A DNA stretch of 64,000 nucleotides from Paralichthys olivaceus (taxonomy: Eukaryota > Chordata > Actinopteri > Pleuronectiformes > Paralichthyidae). A program made the position numbers and the translations under genes. The notes beneath the pieces are model-generated. The model worked only from the letters and a program-made list of their open reading frames with translations, had not been told where the DNA came from and ran no database searches. Positions 6,296-63,716 of the stretch are shown one piece after another. The DNA lies in the NCBI RefSeq assembly GCF_024713975.1, contig NC_091095.1, positions 8,385,501 to 8,449,500 on the forward strand, given 5' to 3'. Position 1 is the stretch's first letter; every line of letters begins with the position of its first letter.

Positions 6296-6448
6296 ATTAT
6301 ACACTATTGAAGTAGTGTGACAGAAGGTGCATGTCTGATATCTTTATCATACCTAAGCAATTCATTTCTAATCAGTCATTTGAATTATTTGATGTCTGAC
6401 TGAGATGTGTTGATTAAATTTATTTTTTTTCTCTGCAGAGTTTTAAAG

Positions 6449-7588
6449 ATGAGGAAAATCAGCATCACGACATTCTTGCTGGCAGCAGCTGTTGGTCTGT
6501 TGGTCTTCCATCTCTTTAAAGAGTTTACTGACAAAAGCCCCATCTGCAGCCCCATACATGTAAGAGAGGAGGGCACTAAAATAAGAAAGTCCCCCTCAAA
6601 CAACTCCTATGTATACTCCTGGCCGAAATGCCAAACAAACATGTCTGCTGGAAATGTCGAAGACTTCAGCTCTTTTCCTCAACATTTACAAGACTTTCTC
6701 TACAATAAACACTGTCGACATTTTCCCATGATACTGGACGTTCCTGACAAATGTGATGGAGCTGAAAATTCTGCAGAAGTCTTCCTCCTCCTGGTCATTA
6801 AAAGCCCCCCTGATAACTACGAACGTCGAGAGGTACTGCGCAAAACCTGGGCTAAAGAGAGGTTGCACAATGGTGTGCAGATCAAGAGGATCTTCCTCTC
6901 AGGAGTGACGGGTTCTGGGTTTGAAAAACTAAGACAGAACAAACTTCTTGAAATGGAACAAAATGAACACAATGACATTCTTCAATGGGACTTTAGAGAC
7001 ACACACTGCAACCTCACCTTGAAGCAGGTACTCTTCCTAGAATGGATGGAAAGAAATTGTCCCCAAGCTCGCTTCTTGCTAAATGGTGATGATGATGTTT
7101 TTGCTCACACAGACAACATGGTTGAGTATCTCCAAGGCCTCAGGGACAATGATGGAAGCAAGCACCTCTTTACTGGAAATTTGGTCCAGAACTCGGGGCC
7201 CATTAGAGACCCAGGGAGCAAGTACTATGTCCCAGTACAAGTACAGGAGTCAGACTCTTATCCCTCTTTTTGTGGTGGTGGGGGCATCCTCCTGTCTGGC
7301 TATACAGCTATGGTCATATACAATATGTCCCAGTCCATCCCTTTTTTTCCTATGGATGACGTTTATTTAGCAATGTGTTTGGTCAAAGCAGGACTTAGTC
7401 CTGTTTCCCATATGGGTGTGTGGACCTCAGGAATGTACATTCCCTCTAAAAAACTAGATGAATTTGATCCTTGCTTTTATAAAGAGATGTTACTGGTGCA
7501 CAGATTCCTTCCAGCAGGCATCTATCTTATGTGGCAAAGAGTAAATGACCCCAATCTAATATGTGAACTGTCAAAGAAATCATTTTAG
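6449..7588 (+). CDS. b3gnt3: Beta-1,3-N-acetylglucosaminyltransferase 3-like, copy 1
   Basis: A 379-residue type II Golgi enzyme of family GT31. It adds GlcNAc in beta-1,3 linkage to galactose on N- and O-glycans, including core 1 extension in the case of B3GNT3. A short cytoplasmic end is followed by a hydrophobic anchor at residues ~6-22, then the catalytic domain: EVFLLLVIKS, RREVLRKTWAKE, the metal-binding DxD motif as NGDDDVF (D214-D216), GGGGILLSGY and MDDVYLAMCL. The open frame extends upstream to 6407, but that part crosses a pyrimidine tract and acceptor (ctctgcag, exon from 6439), so the ATG at 6449 (MRKIS) is the start. The coding region is one exon. Human B3GNT3 is 372 residues and also maps to 19p13.11. 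A tandem paralogue lies 5.5 kb downstream on the same strand. No broken motif is seen. Confidence 0.92.
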   Translation: MRKISITTFLLAAAVGLLVFHLFKEFTDKSPICSPIHVREEGTKIRKSPSNNSYVYSWPKCQTNMSAGNVEDFSSFPQHLQDFLYNKHCRHFPMILDVPDKCDGAENSAEVFLLLVIKSPPDNYERREVLRKTWAKERLHNGVQIKRIFLSGVTGSGFEKLRQNKLLEMEQNEHNDILQWDFRDTHCNLTLKQVLFLEWMERNCPQARFLLNGDDDVFAHTDNMVEYLQGLRDNDGSKHLFTGNLVQNSGPIRDPGSKYYVPVQVQESDSYPSFCGGGGILLSGYTAMVIYNMSQSIPFFPMDDVYLAMCLVKAGLSPVSHMGVWTSGMYIPSKKLDEFDPCFYKEMLLVHRFLPAGIYLMWQRVNDPNLICELSKKSF

Positions 7589-10145: not shown

Positions 10146-12010
10146 GTAAGCAGAGAATGTCACTGTCAGACGTCTGTTGTAGTTCAGAGACTTTTATCAC
10201 CTCACCGCGTTAAACACTGACAAACATCATGACGCCAGCTAGCTCGGCGCAATGAGGGGGCTTCTCAAGCTAGCTACTGAAGTCACGGTCAATGATGGTG
10301 TGTCCATAGCTCTTTATATACAGTCTATGGTCCATAGGCGAAGCAGGAAACTGTCCTGGGAGGCAAAATGTGAATTGCTGAGGAACGTGTCAATCACCTG
10401 CACCTGCTGCCGCCTCCTTCACCACCTCCCGCCCCCGGCTCCCAAGAGCCAGAGGTCAATTCAGTTGAACTTTAGTGAACTTTATTTCAGACTCATACGT
10501 AGGTCCAGAGATCTTTGAGAACAAAATCTCCTGAGGATACTGCAGTGTGTCAAAACCACCGGGAGGATCTGGCTGCAAATATAAAAAAGAGCTTCAGAAA
10601 CAGACAGGGGTTCAAATCCATCCATCCCAGGCAGTGTTGTGCATGAACACGTTCAATCAACATGCTCAGATTTTGTGTGAACGTTGAACTGAACGAATCA
10701 GTTTACATATGATGAACGTGAGCAGTTCCTACAGAGCTGCAGTTTCTGTGACCTGCTCTCACTTTAGCTAATAAACACCAACATTTATCACAAGTTGTCA
10801 GGACCATCATCCATTAAAAAACGGAACAAATGGACGTGAACTAGTTAATTTAGTTCAAACCTGCCTGGCTATAATGTTCCTGTGTAACTGCAACGCTTCC
10901 AACTCCTACTTTTCCTACGTCATTCCTATGGAATGTAACAAAACAAGTTAGCTAGCTATTTGCCATTAAGCCCATCCTTTCAACATCAATCTGATAAACA
11001 TTGAGGTTGAGATGCTTTTCTTTAAATTCTGTGTAAATGAGGTTCGGGTGTTGTCAGAAAAAAATTGAAGAGTAAGAATATTTTTTGACATTAAAGTAGA
11101 ATATTTCTGTGGAACAAAACTCAGGTGTTCTCTGACAAAAAGCTACAGAGCCACGCATTTATTAGGGAAAAATGAATTCATACATTTATCTTGTCTTGTT
11201 CAGACTAACAAACATTAAAAGAACGTTGAAATAATTTTTTTGTAAATTTAGAGGACGGGTAATGTTGTGAGAAATGTAATGGACCAAACAGGAGAGTTAA
11301 AAAGCTAGCTAGTTAGCTAATATTTTGCGACAACACGTTGATTTAACGATGCACTTTTGAGACGGTAAAACAGACAATCCTCCCCCACTCTCCTGACCCC
11401 TACACTCATGGCTCTACAGCCTACTGGTCACTTCCGTCTAGAGGTTCAGAATACGTGGGTCTGTGTTCTGGGGTGGTGATTGGATTATTAACTGATTTTG
11501 GGTGTGACTGTGGAAAACATGAATAAATGAACTCTCTAATAATGGTCATGTCCAAATATCGAACAACAATAACGTAATTATCGTGACAAATTAAAGGCAA
11601 CAAAATATCTGAGAGCAAGTGCACAGTTTGAGCACAAGCAGAGCAAATCTAAGCACAAGTGGGGTTATTTAAGTGTAAGTGCAGGTTTTTTTGTGAAAGT
11701 GTTAACATCTGAACGTGAAGTCAAGTCTTGCTTACAAATGAAGGGAGACCACAGGCTTAAATAAAGATAAGCGGGCGGAACTTAAATGTCTTCTATCTAA
11801 TAATTCCCGAACTCTCTGTTTGTCTCTTTGTGGTTCAAAAATCTTTAGATCTGGTCATCTTATCAACTTCACACTTGGCGTGTGCAGGTCTGATATACTT
11901 AACTTACCTGAGCAATTCATGTCAACTTAGTCATTTAAATTAAATCATTAAAATTCCTTAATGTTTGACTGAGATGTGTTGATTAAAAATTGTTTTGTTT
12001 TTCACTGCAG
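10146..12010 (+). other. Probable 5' intron of b3gnt3 copy 2
   Basis: No coding exon is seen. At about 10300-10330 it has one end of a MITE (tctttatatacagtctatgg) whose fuller copies occur at 42.8 and 52.1 kb. The remainder is unremarkable AT-rich sequence, closing with a pyrimidine tract and acceptor at 12009-12010. Confidence 0.4.
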
Positions 12011-12017
12011 AGTTTCA

Positions 12018-13160
12018 ATGATGAGAAGGATTGGTGCCAGAAAAGTCTTGCTGGCGATAGCTCTTGGTCTGTTGGTCCTTCATCTCAATAAAAATTTTAG
12101 CGATGAAAAAACCATCTGCATCCCCAAAAATGTGAGAGAGGGCAGTGAAATAAGGGAAGCCACCACAAGGGACATCAATGTTTTCTCCTGGTTAAGATGT
12201 CAACAGAACATCTCTGCTGCCAACATCACAGGCTTCAGCTCTCTTTCTGGTAATATACAAGATTTTCTCTACTATCGACACTGTCAACATTTTTCCATGA
12301 TACTGGACATTCCTGACAAATGCGGAGGAGCCGATAAATCTGCAGAAATCTTTCTCCTTCTGGTCATTAAAAGCTCCCCTATGAATTATGAACGTCGAGA
12401 GGTTCTGCGCAAAACCTGGGCTAAAGAGAGGTCGCACAACGGCATGCAGGTCCGGAGGCTCTTCATCTCAGGAGTGACGGGTTCTCATGTTGAAGAAGAG
12501 AGACAGAACAAACTTCTTGAAATGGAACAAAATGAATACAATGACATTCTTCAATGGGACTTTAGAGACACGTTCTACAACCTCACCTTGAAGCAGGTAC
12601 TCTTCCTACAATGGATGGAAAGAAATTGTCCGAAAGCTCGCTTCTTGCTAAATGGCGATGATGATGTTTTTGTCAACACAGACAACATGGTTGAGTATCT
12701 CCAAGGCCTCAGGGAGAATAATGGAAGCAAGCACCTCTTTACTGGACATTTGATCCAGAACGTGGGGCCCATTAGATCACCAGGGAACAAGTACTATGTC
12801 CCAGTACAAGTACAGGAGTCAGACTCTTATCCCCCTTATTGTGGTGGTGGGGGCTTCCTCCTGTCTGGCTATACAGCTATGGTCATATACAAAATGTCCA
12901 AGTCCATCCCTTTTATTCCTATTGATGATGTTTACATGGGGATGTGTTTGGCCAAAGCAGGACTTAGTCCTGTTTCCCATATGGGTGTGAAGACCTCAGG
13001 AATGAACATTCCCTCGGAAAAACTTGATGATTATGATCCTTGCTATTATAAAGAGATTTTACTGGTGCACAGATTCCCTCCAGGTTACATGTATCTTATG
13101 TGGCAAAGAATACATGACCCAGATCTGAAATGTGAACAGTCAAAGAAATCCATTTCATAG
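12018..13160 (+). CDS. b3gnt3: Beta-1,3-N-acetylglucosaminyltransferase 3-like, copy 2
   Basis: A 380-residue GT31 enzyme, tandem paralogue of the gene at 6449-7588. From residue ~85 on the two proteins are close to identical in long stretches; the N-terminal stem differs more. It has a membrane anchor (residues ~9-25), RREVLRKTWAKE, NGDDDVF (D214-D216), YCGGGGFLLSGY and IDDVYMGMCL. The CGGGGFLLS and FxPIDDV forms are nearer to human B3GNT3 than those of copy 1. The exon opens after acceptor ctgcag at 12010. Two ATGs are adjacent and the first (12018) is chosen. The frame running upstream to 11976 is intronic. The coding region is a single exon and looks functional. Confidence 0.92.
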   Translation: MMRRIGARKVLLAIALGLLVLHLNKNFSDEKTICIPKNVREGSEIREATTRDINVFSWLRCQQNISAANITGFSSLSGNIQDFLYYRHCQHFSMILDIPDKCGGADKSAEIFLLLVIKSSPMNYERREVLRKTWAKERSHNGMQVRRLFISGVTGSHVEEERQNKLLEMEQNEYNDILQWDFRDTFYNLTLKQVLFLQWMERNCPKARFLLNGDDDVFVNTDNMVEYLQGLRENNGSKHLFTGHLIQNVGPIRSPGNKYYVPVQVQESDSYPPYCGGGGFLLSGYTAMVIYKMSKSIPFIPIDDVYMGMCLAKAGLSPVSHMGVKTSGMNIPSEKLDDYDPCYYKEILLVHRFPPGYMYLMWQRIHDPDLKCEQSKKSIS

Positions 13161-53329: not shown

Positions 53330-56300
53330 ATGGTCGACTACATCATCAGGAAGCCACTTGGGTTAGTTTTGCTCGCCACAGCTCACATGGTTTTCAATGG
53401 TAAGCTTCTCCATCGCTGATGTTTTAATCTGTGATGTCTGAAAGGTTTTCACCATTTTGATTGCTTTTATGTATTTCTTTATTCTGTTACAATCATAGTG
53501 CCTGTTTTGAAAACATGGGTTATCGTTCCGCTTATATATTGTTGTCCCATAGTTGTATCGCACAGTGACTGTCAGCTGCAGTTTGACTTTGATGTCTTTT
53601 GTTTTGTCACTGCTAAAAACTAATATCATAATCACAGTAATGTGCACTAACGTAAATATACAATAATGTGTAAGTAGACATCTTAACAAAACTATTACCT
53701 GTTTGTGTTTGAGATAATCAGATCTTTAACTTGAGGAAACTTTAAGAGATAAGTTGAATGAAGCAAAACTGGGAGTTTGTTTTCAGTCAGAGTCTACAAC
53801 TCATAATTAACGTAGTTAAACAGAACATACTGACATCGATGACATACAGTATGTCCTCACATGAGGTGAAAACACATTGACACTATATAGAAAATAAAGG
53901 GTTTCCACTTTTCAGGCTGAGCCTAAAAATGATTGAGACAGAGAGTTTGCTCTACTCCTCACAGGAGGCTCGAGGAAAATGATTTTGTGACGATATCACT
54001 ATTTTCAATCTAATCATTTATGGGTGAAATGTCATAGAGATGGGCTTTATCTCTGTTTAGCTACAGTAGTTGTCTGTACATCCAGGCTGCCAATATTCAT
54101 ATGAGATCAATTTAGATTAGTTAAAAAACTTAAAGCCCCATCAGGATGAATTCAGCTACTTCCTCAGTCAGACATCAAACTGAGTAATTCAGATGTTGTT
54201 CATGAAAGTGGACATTTTTGTGAGGGGAAAAAATGCAATGAAGCATTTGTAAACCTGAATAAGTAGAGTGCTGCCGCCTGTACAGACACACAGTCAGAGA
54301 GCAGCTGTTCGCAGCCGCTCAGCGACTGTGGTTTATTTGTTTTTTGAGTTGCTTTTGCCTTTATAGAACGTATAGCTAATGTTCACTGCATCCACTCACT
54401 CACACTCATCTCTGGTTTTGTCCTCACGCAGGCCCCAGTCAAGCAAAGCTCACCGGGATCCTGGGCAGCAACATCACCCTCCTCTTTAGATTTCATGACA
54501 CTTTCATTAATGAGAGCAGTCATTTAGCAGTTTATACAACAGGCCAGAGAAAAATTGCAGAGTGCTCAAAGAGCAAATGCAACTTAATTCTTGAAATTTA
54601 CCAAAACACTTCTGTTCTGTACCACATTAAAAAACTCCAGCTGAATGGCAGTGGAATTTATTGGGCCAGCTTGTTCCCTGGCTCCGGACCCACCATAGAA
54701 AGCGATAAGGTGCAGCTGCTCGTCCAAGATGGGAACGGAAGTGTCACAGGTAAAATCTGACCATATCATTATCTCACAAGAAATGACACCAATATAGATC
54801 AATATAAGGAAGACACAATCAGTCTGTGATGTGCAGCATATAGACGGACATACTACTACTAATAATAATAATACTTGATACAGCTTTTTTAAAAATAAAT
54901 ATTTCAGATTAACAACCTCATTCTCATTTACTGCAGTTTGCACATCACCATATGTTAACAGAAGGAAATGTCCCCTAACACAGGGGAATATTTTCATCCT
55001 ACAATGAATGACCAGATCCTGCCATTATATCGTTTAAAGGATAAGCCTGGTCATACACATACTGTATTTTTCTAATTTGAACTAATATGGCAATACCAAA
55101 CCAAAGAAATGATCCTGCGATCAATTTTTTCCAACAACTAATCCTGATATAACTTATTTCTCTGTGCTATAGAACTACAGTGTTGTCACACTGGGTGAGA
55201 CAAATCAAGGCAGGACTTTCAAAGATATGTTATTATATATTTTTAGTTTTCATTCGTAGTTTGAGACTTTGAATTGAATTAGTTGACAACAAAAAAAAGG
55301 ATAATGACTGGAGCTCCGACACTTCCTCATTGTTGGCACAGTGTTACTGTCACTGCTGGTTAAAGACTCATATGTCTGCAAAAGTGTTTGCGTCATCACT
55401 TTGTAAGGACGACTTTGTATGTAATTTAAAAAGTGGTTCTCACTCAAATTGTGGCATTAAATTGCCATTGCTGTAGATGTTTAAAGAGATTTTATTTCTA
55501 CACAAAGACATGAGTATGTATTCTCATCATCTCCCACAGTTTCTCCTCTGCCGACTAATACAACAATATTCGAAAACCATGGAAATTCCAGTGTCTTTTC
55601 CTTTCACCACATCGCCATCCTTGTGGCTCCTGTCGTACTGCTGGCTGCAGCACTTACCCTGCTGATCTGGTGTCTTGTGAGAACCAAAGGTAGTTTACTG
55701 CTGTCTGACATAACTGTAACATAGTTCTCTGGGATATTGTGTTCTGTCTTCTGTCAAAATATCACCCTCGATATTAACTTACACCAACTACTGGTTGGTG
55801 ATAATTTAGATCAATTAAATTTAAGTCTAATCTCACATTGTACAGACAGGTCAGCTGAAAACCAAAAACACAGTCTTAATGTTTGACATAATACAATCCA
55901 AGGTTGTGTTTGTGTTATTCTCCTGAAATTACTTTAAAACCACAAAGTTCAAAGTAAAGGGTCACATTTAATAAAGTGTTTTCTACCACATTAAGTTAGT
56001 TTGAATAAATCAACTGTTGGGAGTGATTTGATTAAATAAATAATGACAATAGTTGACAATATTTAATGTATGTGTATGTTCATGTTTAACTTTATTTATT
56101 TAAATCACTCTCAAGTTATTTTATTTGTTCAAACTAACTCATAATATGTAATTTAAACACATAAAGCATAATTACTTTTGAGTGCAGATTAAGTCTAGAG
56201 AGAGTTACCTACTCAGGGCTATAATGAGTCTTTTGAAAAAGTCTTTTCAAGTAAAAGAAAGTGAAGATGACAAGAATAATTGTTATTCTTCTGGAAAATA

Positions 56301-58257
56301 TGTGCACTTGTGTGGTTAGACGCTAACTAAATTGCAGTTTCACATCATTCAGATTCATGTGATGATTCACAGTTCCCTCCACGGAGCAGGCACAAGTAAA
56401 CGTGTCTACTATCACTGAAGGATGTGTGGAAAAACTTGAAAAAGAAGACGACAGAAAAATGTGTTCACTAATATGGCCTAGTTTGAGCAGAGACACTATC
56501 ACTTGGAAATATCTGATCTCAAGTCCCTGTGACCTCAGAAACCACATTAGATGAGTTTATGTGTATGCACATGCAGGCTTTTGCTGACTGTGTATTCCTG
56601 TGTCGTGTCGTGCTAACCTGGTCCAACAGATAGCACGTCTCCCACAGGCCGATGAGCCTTCAGCTGAAAAAAATTTCACACATCTGCATACTGACAGTTT
56701 GATGAGATAAACAGATTAGCTAGATAATGTATATGTATGTATCCGTATAATCTAACAATTGCATTGATCCCGCAATGGGCAAATCCACTTATTACAGCAG
56801 ACCAGACAGAATGAGGTAGACGAGAGAAAAAAAAATCGTTAAATAAAATTAAAATTAGATTTAAAAAACCTATAGAGTAATGCATTGGTATTTTTAGATG
56901 TATTTACATTTTTGCAGACCACAAGATAGGAACTTTAGCACACAGTATCTGCATTTAAACATGTATGAATTTTCACCCCTTCTTCACGCTGTCGATCATA
57001 ATGTTTCTCCATTTTCACAGCATCAAATAACTGATAAAACCAAACTTTCTGGAATAATTAACACTTTATCAAACAGTGTGATAACAACTATATCTAATAT
57101 GACAGGAACCATCTTAGTTTCCATGTCCCCTCTATTAAAGGTCCAGCATGTAAGATTTAGGTGACAGGGAACTATTGGCAGAAATTTTATGTAGAATAAC
57201 CCACATGATGTTTTCACTAGTTCATTTCATCTAAATTGTATGAGCTGTAGTTTTCTTGACCCCAGAAGAGGCCCTTTATATTCAAATACTTTATATTTAC
57301 ATCGAGGGGACCCTCTCTACGGAGGCCGCCATGTTTTTTACAGTAGTCCAAACTGGACAAACTAAACACCTTTTGAGTTTTTATGACAATTAAAGGCTAC
57401 CACAGTTTATTCTTCATGTTTGGAAGGAGAGGGTGAGGTGAGGGGTGATCAGCTGCAACATGCAGTTTCAACTCTAGATATAACAAAATTCTACACACTG
57501 TACCTTTAATATAGAGAAGGTGGGATTTATGATCTATACTGCTGCCAGCTGTCAGGGGTTGATCCAAATGAATGGGCTTCACTTTTGGGGAACTGTCGTC
57601 AATCTGAACATATGTGTGAATATGAACTGGGCTCAAGAGTTGATTAGCTTAGCTTAGCACAAACACTGAAAGTTGGGGAAAGGGTTAATCTGGATCGTGA
57701 AACTGAAATATAAAAAACTATTTTGTGAACAAAATGACAGATTATATGTTCAACAGTACTTCTGTGCAGCGTCTTCAGGTCTGTGGTAATATTAGCAGAT
57801 GTCTTTGTACATGCATGATAGCACCAAACATGGAAAACGAATTTTAAAAAAATATTTAATTATCAGAAAGAAAATTAACAAGCGTATTTGCCAAGATGTC
57901 AAACTATTCTTCCAGTGACATGAACTGAAATGATTTCTGATGCTGATTATTTCCCTGACTGAATCAACATCTCATATGCTTTGCTTCATATACAGAGAAA
58001 CAACAACCACAACAAAACTCTAATCACACAGTGCAGGTAAGAGTTGTGATTGCTTCCCACTAACATGCCAAAGTAAATAAATCTGCAGAACTGCTCTAGC
58101 TTTACTCGACTTGTGTTTTTAGGAAACAGTGGCTGGGTCCCACACCGTGCCTCCGCCCTCACTAATCTACAGTGTCCTGGACTTTGCTCGAAGACCTCCT
58201 GCAGCTTTGGACAAGAGTCTCGATGATACAGAGTACACTGCTGTCACCTATCCCTAA
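53330..58257 (+). CDS. Single-Ig SLAM/CD2-like receptor with ITIM and ITSM motifs
   Basis: Exons 53330-53399, 54432-54749, 55540-55689, 57996-58036 and 58123-58257 join in phase to 237 residues. Residues 1-24 form a signal peptide (MVDYIIRKPLGLVLLATAHM). Residues ~28-128 are one Ig V-type domain, with SNITLLFRF as the B strand and LNGSGIYWASLF as the F strand. The canonical disulphide cysteines of both strands are absent, as in CD2/SLAM-family N-terminal domains; two other Cys lie in AECSKSKC. Several N-glycosylation sites follow the NxS/T rule. A transmembrane helix spans 154-176. The tail carries an ITIM-like LIYSVL (Y209) and an ITSM TEYTAV (Y231), which bind SHP phosphatases or SAP-type adaptors in known receptors. 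A leukocyte inhibitory or SLAM-type receptor is the best reading. Other SLAM proteins normally have a second C2 domain, missing here. Confidence 0.8.
57136..57508. mobile_element. Non-autonomous DNA transposon (MITE) with terminal inverted repeats
   Basis: About 373 bp bounded by 'taaaggtccagcatgtaaga' on the left and 'tacacactgtacctttaa' on the right, which are inverted repeats with few mismatches. Flanking AT/TA bases fit a short target duplication. It contains 'ggaggccgccatgttttt'. No transposase. Confidence 0.8.
57525..57665. repeat. Fragments of MITE-like repeats
   Basis: Reverse-orientation piece of the 42.8/52.1 kb element (aatgggcttcacttttgggg) followed by 'gattagcttagcttagcac', related to 26.8 kb. 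Confidence 0.5.
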
Positions 58258-58356
58258 GAAACAAGACAAATGTGAAGCACAGGTGAATGTAAACCTGCTG
58301 GTCTTTCTTAGTCTGAGTATAAAAATAAATTCTTTGTAAACCAAATGCTGTTATTG

Positions 58357-58362
58357 CAATAA
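58357..58362 (+). terminator. Polyadenylation signal of the SLAM-like gene
   Basis: AATAAA about 100 bases after the stop codon; another AATAAA lies slightly upstream at about 58325. Gives a short 3' UTR. Confidence 0.55.
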
Positions 58363-58399
58363 ATTACAAACAAAACAGTTTTGAGGGGGAAGGTGGGCA

Positions 58400-62494: not shown

Positions 62495-63716
62495 ATGGAA
62501 ACTTTGAGATACTGGAGTTTACTATGTGGATATTTTGTGTTTATGTTCCTCACAACAGGAAGCAAAGGTAAAGGAATACTCTCTTTACTTTTTCACTACT
62601 TTTGTGTTGTTAATGTGGTTTATGATTCACTTTTAATATCAAACTCATATTGATCAGTACATGGTGTATGATACTAATCAGATTTGAAATTAAGTTTCTG
62701 CAGTAAAACTAGAACATCAGTCACAGAATGTTTTTTCACAAAATGTGGGCTTGTCAACCACTAACAGATGCACGGCATTGTGCAGCTTTCTCAGGTGTCA
62801 GCCTGTAGTTTCCACTTATAGATTGGATGTATTTGTATTTCACTGATGTATATAACTTTAGCCTCTTCAGAATGGCAAGACTGAATTAATATAGAAGGTA
62901 TTTTCAAGTGCTTTGCAGCAAAACAAAAAATTAAACAGGAGAGGTAAATGTAAAAGTGGAATAACAATAAATGAAAAGTTTTATAAAATAAGAACACTGC
63001 AGCTGCTTGTTGTTTATTTTTTGCTTGTTTATCTCTACAGAAAATACTTCTCTTTTTCTTCTGTAAAAATATGTAAAAACCAATTTTACTTGTGAATTTG
63101 ATCATCGTTTTAAAGACGTGTTCCTCTGAAGGGTCTGCGTGTATAGCTCCTACAAGTCCTGAGTGCTTCAGGAAAAATGCTGACGATTCTGTTTACACGT
63201 GTGAATGGAGCATGAACACGACTGATGGCAATGTGACATTTGACCTTTATTTTAAGTGAGTATGCTTTAAGTGTTTGAGCTGCAAAATATTGAAAAATCA
63301 ACTCAACTAACAAATTATCCATGGCAATTTCCCCTTTAAGTCTTACTTTAAGTTCTAAGTTGACTTTAAATTCTTTATCGCAAAGTTTACATATGTCCGA
63401 CTAGGTTTTGGGTTAGTGTGTCAAAAATAATGCATTAGAAATAAGATATTGTCTGATACTGTGTAGTAGTCTCAAGTCTGCTAATTATAAAACCTCATAT
63501 CTAATGACAATGTATTTCAGTTTCGTCCACTTTTTACGACTCATACCTAAATATTTATCCTTAGTCAAAAAAAGATTGAAAGCATTAACAAGACCAGGTA
63601 TACGATCTGTGAGGAAGAGCTCATCCGACGTCGAGAGGTTTACATTTGGGTGGAAGCTCATGTAAGAAACTCCAGCTGCTCATCGCCCAAGAGGTCTGTG
63701 GTGCTCGAAAACATAG
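62495..63716 (+). CDS. il12rb1: Class I cytokine receptor, 5' part; probable IL-12 receptor beta-1
   Basis: Exon 62495-62567 encodes a signal peptide (METLRYWSLLCGYFVFMFLT); an in-frame upstream ATG (62399) also exists. Exons 63116-63255 and 63565-63716 join in phase and encode an N-terminal cytokine-receptor domain: SPECFRK, VYTCEWSM (the Cys-x-Trp hallmark), FDLYFN, then EVYIWVEAHVRNSSCSSPKR. The YxCxW and 'LWVEAxxRN-SPK' order is that of IL12RB1 domain 1, and human IL12RB1 adjoins MAST3. IL12RB1 pairs with IL12RB2 or IL23R to sense IL-12/IL-23. Exon 1 ends in phase 1 but exon 2 reads in phase 0 from its acceptor, so an intermediate small exon, another acceptor or an indel is needed. The WSxWS motif, transmembrane and tail lie beyond the window. 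Confidence 0.65.

Follow-up and report, generated by a model that had tools for sequence, protein, structure and literature searches.

A five-exon gene near il12rb1 predicted to encode a single-V receptor with ITIM and ITSM, a probable fish PD-1

Results

A gene split over five exons lies on the + strand at positions 53330-58257 of the window, the whole 64,000-nt stretch of DNA that was analysed. When 53330-53399, 54432-54749, 55540-55689, 57996-58036 and 58123-58257 were joined, 714 nt were obtained, encoding 237 residues and a stop codon. All four introns run from GT to AG, with phases 1, 1, 1 and 0. Joining the exons at these GT/AG junctions confirmed the original prediction of five in-phase exons and a 237-residue receptor. 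Exon 1 (53330..53399, +) opens with an ATG in good Kozak context (ccaccATGG), encodes a hydrophobic leader and ends in a phase 1 donor. It is followed by a V-type Ig domain that lacks the cysteines of strands B and F and the tryptophan of strand C (exon 2, 54432..54749, +), and by a Ser/Thr/Asn-rich stalk with the transmembrane helix at about 55611-55667 (exon 3, 55540..55689, +); residues 154-172 are the most hydrophobic 19-residue segment of the 237-residue protein. A membrane-proximal cytoplasmic exon of 41 bases (exon 4, 57996..58036, +) is entered in phase 1 and left in phase 0, and exon 5 (58123..58257, +) encodes the remaining tail with the ITIM, the ITSM and the stop. Two AATAAA polyadenylation-type signals (58324..58363, +) start 67 and 101 bases past the stop codon. 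The predicted product is an intact inhibitory-type receptor with one V domain and an ITIM followed by an ITSM, and its gene is close to il12rb1. The single V-type Ig domain lacking the canonical disulphide, the transmembrane helix and the tail with LIYSVL and TEYTAV, as described earlier, were all found.

The whole protein contains three cysteines (68, 73 and 174). In a hand alignment, F42 and A102 occupy the Ig cysteine positions and V57 that of the core tryptophan. Sequons in exon 2 are N37, N50, N82, N95 and N125. Y58 and K64 align by hand with PD-1 Y68 and K78 if a gap of four residues is allowed, and by the same means the N95-x-S-G-x-Y stretch resembles N116-x-S-G-x-Y of PD-1. Among the V-domain positions named for PD-1 in the main text of PMC12151841, 11 of 19 match exon 2.

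We scored the V exon against a panel of 14 V domains, seven of them human CD2/SLAM-type. The four best of the 14 were CD2 (z 5.2), SLAMF7 (4.1), CD48 (3.8) and SLAMF6 (3.6); CD28 reached z 3.0, and mouse and human PD-1 only 0.7 and 0.4. The remaining CD2/SLAM-type domains scored low (CD84 1.2, SLAMF1 0.9, CD58 -0.6). The core tryptophan is kept in six of the seven CD2/SLAM-type panel domains, SLAMF1 being the exception, and is absent from exon 2. Neither the whole protein nor the Ig exon had a meaningful match in Pfam, NCBIfam and PDB sequence searches. The AlphaFold2 model of the Ig exon, made from single-sequence input, had a pLDDT of 41.8 and was set aside. Genome searches found neither a second copy of exon 2 nor a related exon of SLAM-like type.

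To detect a possible C2 exon, we screened for open blocks of 210-360 nt running from AG to one of the listed donor types in phase 1-1. The screen recovered exon 2 as a control and gave no candidates in introns 1, 2 and 3. After relaxing the length to 150-209 nt, a single block was obtained (56926-57075). The C2 exon between 54749 and 55540 that would have contradicted a V-only gene was thus looked for in the genomic sequence and not found.

In the tail, the ITIM region LIYSVLDF (Y209) lies at 58162..58185 (+) and the ITSM region TEYTAVTY (Y231) at 58228..58251 (+), both as sequence motifs, with TEYTAV fitting the ITSM definition. The two tyrosines are 22 residues apart, where about 20 had been estimated. 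A strict ITIM+ITSM pattern matched once in the window, at the gene itself, and not at all in 60 first-order Markov copies of the window or in C3:10340001-10540000; a loose pattern gave three matches in the window, the gene included, and two in C3:10340001-10540000. Because both patterns were written after the gene was seen, these counts speak of rarity only.

The tail was also compared with 16 known tails, TREML1 being represented by a short fragment only. The best scores were obtained with mouse PD-1 (z 4.9), human PD-1 (4.0) and CEACAM1 (2.9), all others staying below 2, including those of the SLAM family (1.0-1.9). The tails of BTLA, Siglec, CD33, CEACAM1, LAIR1, SIRPA, CD22 and PECAM1 all scored below PD-1. 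That PD-1 tops this panel supports the PD-1-like tail noted in the original prediction. In a three-way alignment, P..S..Y..LDF and TEY are in register with mammalian PD-1. The published tail consensus of ray-finned fish PD-1 is (I/V)(D/E)Y(A/G)(E/V)L(D/E)F and (T/V)EYATIx(F/Y); the gene matches 9 of its 15 defined positions, the mismatches being two residues before the ITIM tyrosine, one after it, and ATI of the ITSM.

When the 588-Mb genome was searched with a consensus-built PD-1 tail, the single match was the gene (48% over 34/34 residues; E 2.04, a weak value), and this match leans partly on a linker composed after the gene had been seen, since the human and mouse PD-1 tails did not retrieve the gene and the consensus query with an X linker had no match in the genome. 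Matches on C8, C1, C22 and C18 were inspected and judged to be chance, the one on C1 being retroelement sequence by eye. No other similar Ig exon or tail was found in the genome searches, and no second PD-1 candidate within their limited sensitivity. Likewise, neither 200 kb around dynlt2b (C3:10.34-10.54 Mb) nor some 20 kb next to pcyt1a (C16) showed a rival PD-1 tail.

A MAST-type kinase and il12rb1 were the closest genes recognised around it, il12rb1 being the cytokine receptor noticed earlier at this place; neither is among the PD-1 markers in the published descriptions consulted. The linkage markers named in the main text of PMC12151841 are dynlt2b/tctex1d2, pcyt1a, rtp, tsc22d2, ephb3b and sox2, with pcyt1a consistent, and DYNLT2B and TSC22D2 are given there as PD-1-linked. 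DYNLT2B, whose best PDB match is DYNLT2B, lies at C3:10.43 Mb, about 2 Mb from the gene, which is on C3 too. At C3:10.49-10.52 Mb, also about 2 Mb away, there is a gene of the TSC22 family reading as TSC22D2; pcyt1a is on C16, not C3. The main texts of PMC12151841 and PMC11599192 do not mention il12rb1, and among the literature matches listed none was relevant to il12rb1/mast3 together with fish PD-1.

Discussion

PD-1 is an immune "brake" and a target of cancer therapy. Its fish counterpart was once reported missing and was recognised in 2024-2025; the main texts of PMC11599192 and PMC12151841 describe its tail as conserved and its V domain as eroded. According to these texts, teleost PD-1 lacks two canonical residues of the V domain, the cysteine C23 and the tryptophan W41 (PMC11599192), and PD-1 retains the PD-L1-contacting Y68 and K78 (PMC12151841). 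The gene has the ray-finned layout of a single V, stalk, transmembrane helix and ITIM then ITSM, and by hand alignment has F42 and V57 at the two lost positions. We therefore consider it probably a fish PD-1 (PDCD1), a further member of this recently recognised family. Teleost PD-1 fits better than SLAM because of the tail, the exon plan, the degenerate V domain and the chromosome shared with DYNLT2B and a TSC22 gene. Gene structure, motifs, their spacing, the single copy found and the chromosomal linkage underlie this reading.

By analogy with the family and with mammalian PD-1, the gene would be expressed in T cells and its degenerate V domain would bind the B7-type ligand PD-L1. Engagement beside the T-cell receptor may let Src-family kinases phosphorylate Y209 and Y231, and both phosphotyrosines could then offer a docking site to the tandem SH2 domains of SHP-2, or of the paralogous SHP-2L, by which T-cell signalling would be dampened.

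Several results count against PD-1. On the panel of 14 V domains the V exon appears closer to CD2, SLAMF7, CD48, SLAMF6 and CD28 than to PD-1, with a clear margin for the four CD2/SLAM-type domains. No more than 9 of the 15 tail consensus positions match, pcyt1a is on C16, the recognised neighbours are outside the PD-1 markers, and the human and mouse PD-1 tails did not retrieve the gene. The ITSM is a standard TEYTAV, unlike that of fish PD-1, which the main text of PMC11599192 calls divergent from TxYxxV/I.

The CD2/SLAM family has a domain 1 without the disulphide. The gene could be such a receptor after C2 loss, its V domain binding itself or a SLAM-type V, its ITSM recruiting SAP or EAT-2 and its ITIM phosphatases. 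The four top V scores point this way, as do GILGSNITL and NGSGIY, which are similar to SLAM domain 1 stretches. However, CD84, SLAMF1 and CD58 scored low, no SLAM-like V-exon relative was found in the genome, and SLAM tails are not known to combine both motifs in a single exon with an LDF extension. SLAM, put forward in the original prediction, is not supported as the best reading because the C2 exon was not found, the core tryptophan is missing and the tail differs from SLAM tails, and we regard it as unlikely. What stands of that proposal is the likeness of the V domain, for which four of seven human CD2/SLAM-type domains outscore PD-1; SLAM identity overall is not supported. A separate checkpoint with a CD2/SLAM-type V on a PD-1-like tail, lying between the MAST-type kinase and il12rb1 and with its PD-1 architecture reached from SLAM stock, also seems improbable.

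Somewhat more doubtful still is a distinct and undescribed fish receptor of inhibitory type, with one V domain, between the MAST-type kinase and il12rb1, for example an old PD-1/CD28-family paralogue or an orphan ITIM receptor. A locus unlike the published PD-1 neighbourhoods, without il12rb1 in the two main texts, the 6 of 15 consensus positions that differ and the CD28 score would suit it, whereas the plan and the lost cysteine and tryptophan are as described for teleost PD-1 (PMC12151841, PMC11599192), and the searches, of limited sensitivity, gave no other PD-1 candidate in the genome, at dynlt2b or beside pcyt1a. If the gene is PD-1, the term 'undescribed' used for it earlier does not hold, because degenerate-V teleost PD-1 was published in 2024-2025 (PMC11599192, PMC12151841). 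A degenerating or non-expressed gene is hardly credible: the V domain is highly divergent and the gene model comes from genomic sequence, but the five exons keep a 237-codon frame intact, their splice sites are GT/AG, and polyadenylation-type signals follow the stop.

Read as PD-1, the gene would extend the known PD-1 gene models to another fish; its ITIM is intact, its ITSM is a standard TxYxxV, and its V domain would be eroded towards CD2/SLAM resemblance. It makes testable whether fish PD-1 still binds PD-L1 or has taken a new ligand while keeping its inhibitory tail, which is relevant to checkpoint work in farmed fish. The interval between the MAST-type kinase and il12rb1 is a search locus that the main texts of PMC12151841 and PMC11599192 do not name.

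Comparison with known systems

Compared through published descriptions and consensus (PMC12151841, PMC11599192), ray-finned fish PD-1 shares with the gene the leader, single degenerate V, stalk, transmembrane segment and ITIM+ITSM tail, possibly, in the gapped hand alignment, residues like Y68 and K78, and a chromosome with DYNLT2B and a TSC22 gene; it differs in that only 9 of 15 tail consensus positions agree, the neighbours are others and pcyt1a is elsewhere. CD28HL3 is also a fish single V with an ITIM/ITSM tail, reported among teleosts from cypriniforms and siluriforms, but its CDR3 motif YxCxxxxx(I/A/V/L)P has a cysteine that is absent from the gene (main text of PMC11599192).

The gene has in common with CD2/SLAM domain 1 the V type without canonical disulphide and GxxVTL- and SGxY-like stretches, and with the family an ITSM in the tail. 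It departs from the V plus C2 extracellular plan in having no C2 domain, and it also lacks the core tryptophan and has a tail unlike SLAM tails.

In a hand alignment the gene has sequons resembling N49 and N116 of mammalian PD-1, from which it differs in lacking the canonical Ig cysteines and tryptophan. The tail of the gene stops just past the ITSM and does not have the long C-terminal extension of mammalian PD-1. Human PDCD1, whose exons 1-4 have 76, 360, 156 and 35 coding bases, shares the plan of leader, V, stalk with transmembrane helix, tiny exon and one tail exon with both motifs, in phases 1, 1, 1 and 0.

Structure of the receptor gene

The receptor gene lies on the plus strand at window positions 53330-58257, and the originally predicted five-exon model was borne out, with a product of 237 residues and GT..AG boundaries at all four introns (phases 1, 1, 1 and 0). 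Exon 1 (53330-53399) encodes a hydrophobic leader and exon 2 (54432-54749) the V-type Ig part, which is followed by a Ser/Thr/Asn-rich stalk and a helix (residues 154-172). Exon 3 (55540-55689) and a membrane-proximal exon 4 of 41 bases (57996-58036) precede terminal exon 5 (58123-58257), which carries LIYSVLDF (Y209) and, 22 residues further on, TEYTAVTY (Y231). The strict motif pattern matched once in the window, in none of 60 Markov copies of it and nowhere in 200 kb elsewhere on chromosome C3; the loose pattern matched three times in the window and twice in that 200 kb. The original prediction had named a C2 exon hidden between 54749 and 55540 as a finding against it; such an exon was looked for and not found. 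Introns 1 to 3 were scanned for a second Ig exon (210-360 nt): none was detected, exon 2 was recovered as a control, and a single open 150-nt block lies at 56926-57075.

Genomic neighbourhood

In the 588 Mb genome (25 contigs), the window is located at C3:8385501-8449500. Upstream of the receptor gene is a minus-strand kinase gene with a PDZ exon, which we read as a MAST kinase; the best PDB match of its kinase exon was greatwall. Further upstream are an LDL-receptor class B repeat and two galactosyltransferase genes, present as uninterrupted single-exon tandem frames on the plus strand (6404-7588 and 11973-13160; Pfam Galactosyl_T). These are 72% identical over 395 columns and are a local duplication. 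The neighbouring cytokine receptor noted originally proved to be il12rb1, also on the plus strand: all five PDB matches of its joined pieces were IL-12 receptor beta-1 (best E 9e-8), and its first recognised exon, at 63077, is 4.8 kb past the receptor gene. A Kelch/BTB gene further downstream was read as klhl26. This gene set resembles human 19p13.11, where no Ig receptor is known between MAST3 and IL12RB1. The flounder MAST-type kinase and il12rb1 retain the head-to-head arrangement of human MAST3 and IL12RB1, here with the Ig receptor gene in between.

Tail and V domain comparisons

Sequence searches with the Ig exon gave no meaningful match and its single-sequence fold prediction was unusable, so the tail, the V domain, the plan of the gene and its linkage were each tested on their own. 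Against a panel of 16 tails, one only a short fragment, the receptor tail scored best with mouse PD-1 (z 4.9) and human PD-1 (z 4.0), followed by CEACAM1 (z 2.9), with all others below 2. In a three-way alignment with mammalian PD-1, P, S, Y, L, D, F, R, P and T-E-Y were invariant, and the tail agrees at 9 of the 15 defined positions of the PD-1 consensus published in PMC12151841.

The V exon, compared with a panel of 14 domains, scored highest with CD2 (z 5.2), SLAMF7 (4.1), CD48 (3.8), SLAMF6 (3.6) and CD28 (3.0); the other three CD2/SLAM-type domains gave 1.2, 0.9 and -0.6, and PD-1 reached only 0.7 (mouse) and 0.4 (human). These scores are the strongest result against a PD-1 identity, and would favour a CD2/SLAM receptor that lacks C2. 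Their weight is softened because PD-1 sequences from distant vertebrates often share less than 20% identity (PMC12151841), and because the V exon lacks the canonical cysteine and tryptophan, as reported for teleost PD-1 in PMC11599192, whereas six of the seven CD2/SLAM-type panel domains retain the tryptophan. Aligned by hand, the exon agrees with PD-1 at 11 of 19 named V-domain positions, including Y68-, K78- and N116/S118-like residues, and with tarpon PD-1 at five of six, D117 differing.

Taken together, the receptor gene is probably fish PD-1. The tail scores, the lost tryptophan and the failure to find a C2 exon in introns 1 to 3 make PD-1 a better reading than the SLAM label first given. 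A CD2/SLAM receptor lacking C2 is an unlikely alternative. Some other undescribed receptor is slightly less likely again, and a non-functional gene, given the intact five-exon frame, is very improbable. If the gene is PD-1, the earlier description of it as undescribed falls.

Genome search and linkage to PD-1 markers

The published-consensus tail query had a single genome match, the receptor gene (E 2.04), with a linker composed after that gene had been seen. Human and mouse PD-1 tails, and the consensus joined by X residues, did not retrieve it; the negative result for another PD-1 is therefore weak, and the consensus match rests partly on the linker. Used as genome queries, the receptor gene's tail and Ig exon retrieved only themselves and chance matches.

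Two papers link bony-fish PD-1 to pcyt1a, tctex1d2 (dynlt2b) and rtp (PMC11599192), and to tsc22d2, ephb3b and sox2 (PMC12151841). The receptor gene, at 8.44 Mb, shares C3 with dynlt2b (10.43 Mb; DYNLT2B gave the best PDB matches of its exon), a TSC22-box exon (10.488 Mb) and a long exon, read as TSC22D2, at 10.518-10.520 Mb. Since C3 comprises 29 of 588 Mb, a single chromosome match is expected by chance at roughly 5%, and the adjoining dynlt2b and TSC22 genes were counted as one. Linkage is only partial, because pcyt1a, queried with a human piece, is on C16. The marker set is thus divided, as though sorted onto two chromosomes following the teleost genome duplication. Neither the 200 kb around dynlt2b (C3:10340001-10540000) nor a stretch of about 20 kb next to pcyt1a yielded a PD-1-type tail. 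C3:10340001 to beyond 10355387 is occupied by a long tandem array (period ~408 bases) whose units have open frames of 98-135 codons on each strand; it looks like a satellite rather than genes.

Proposed mechanism

If the gene is PD-1, ligand engagement by the V domain would bring the receptor to the T-cell synapse, although PMC11599192 raises doubt whether the eroded V domain of fish PD-1 still binds PD-L1. Lck-type kinases would then phosphorylate Y209 and Y231, SHP-2 (or SHP-2L) could dock on both phosphorylated tyrosines, and the docked phosphatase would strip phosphates from TCR and CD28 signalling. Motif order and the spacing of the tyrosines are seen in the tail itself; the further steps are inferred from mammalian PD-1 and from fish PD-1, whose expression in T cells is reported in PMC12151841.
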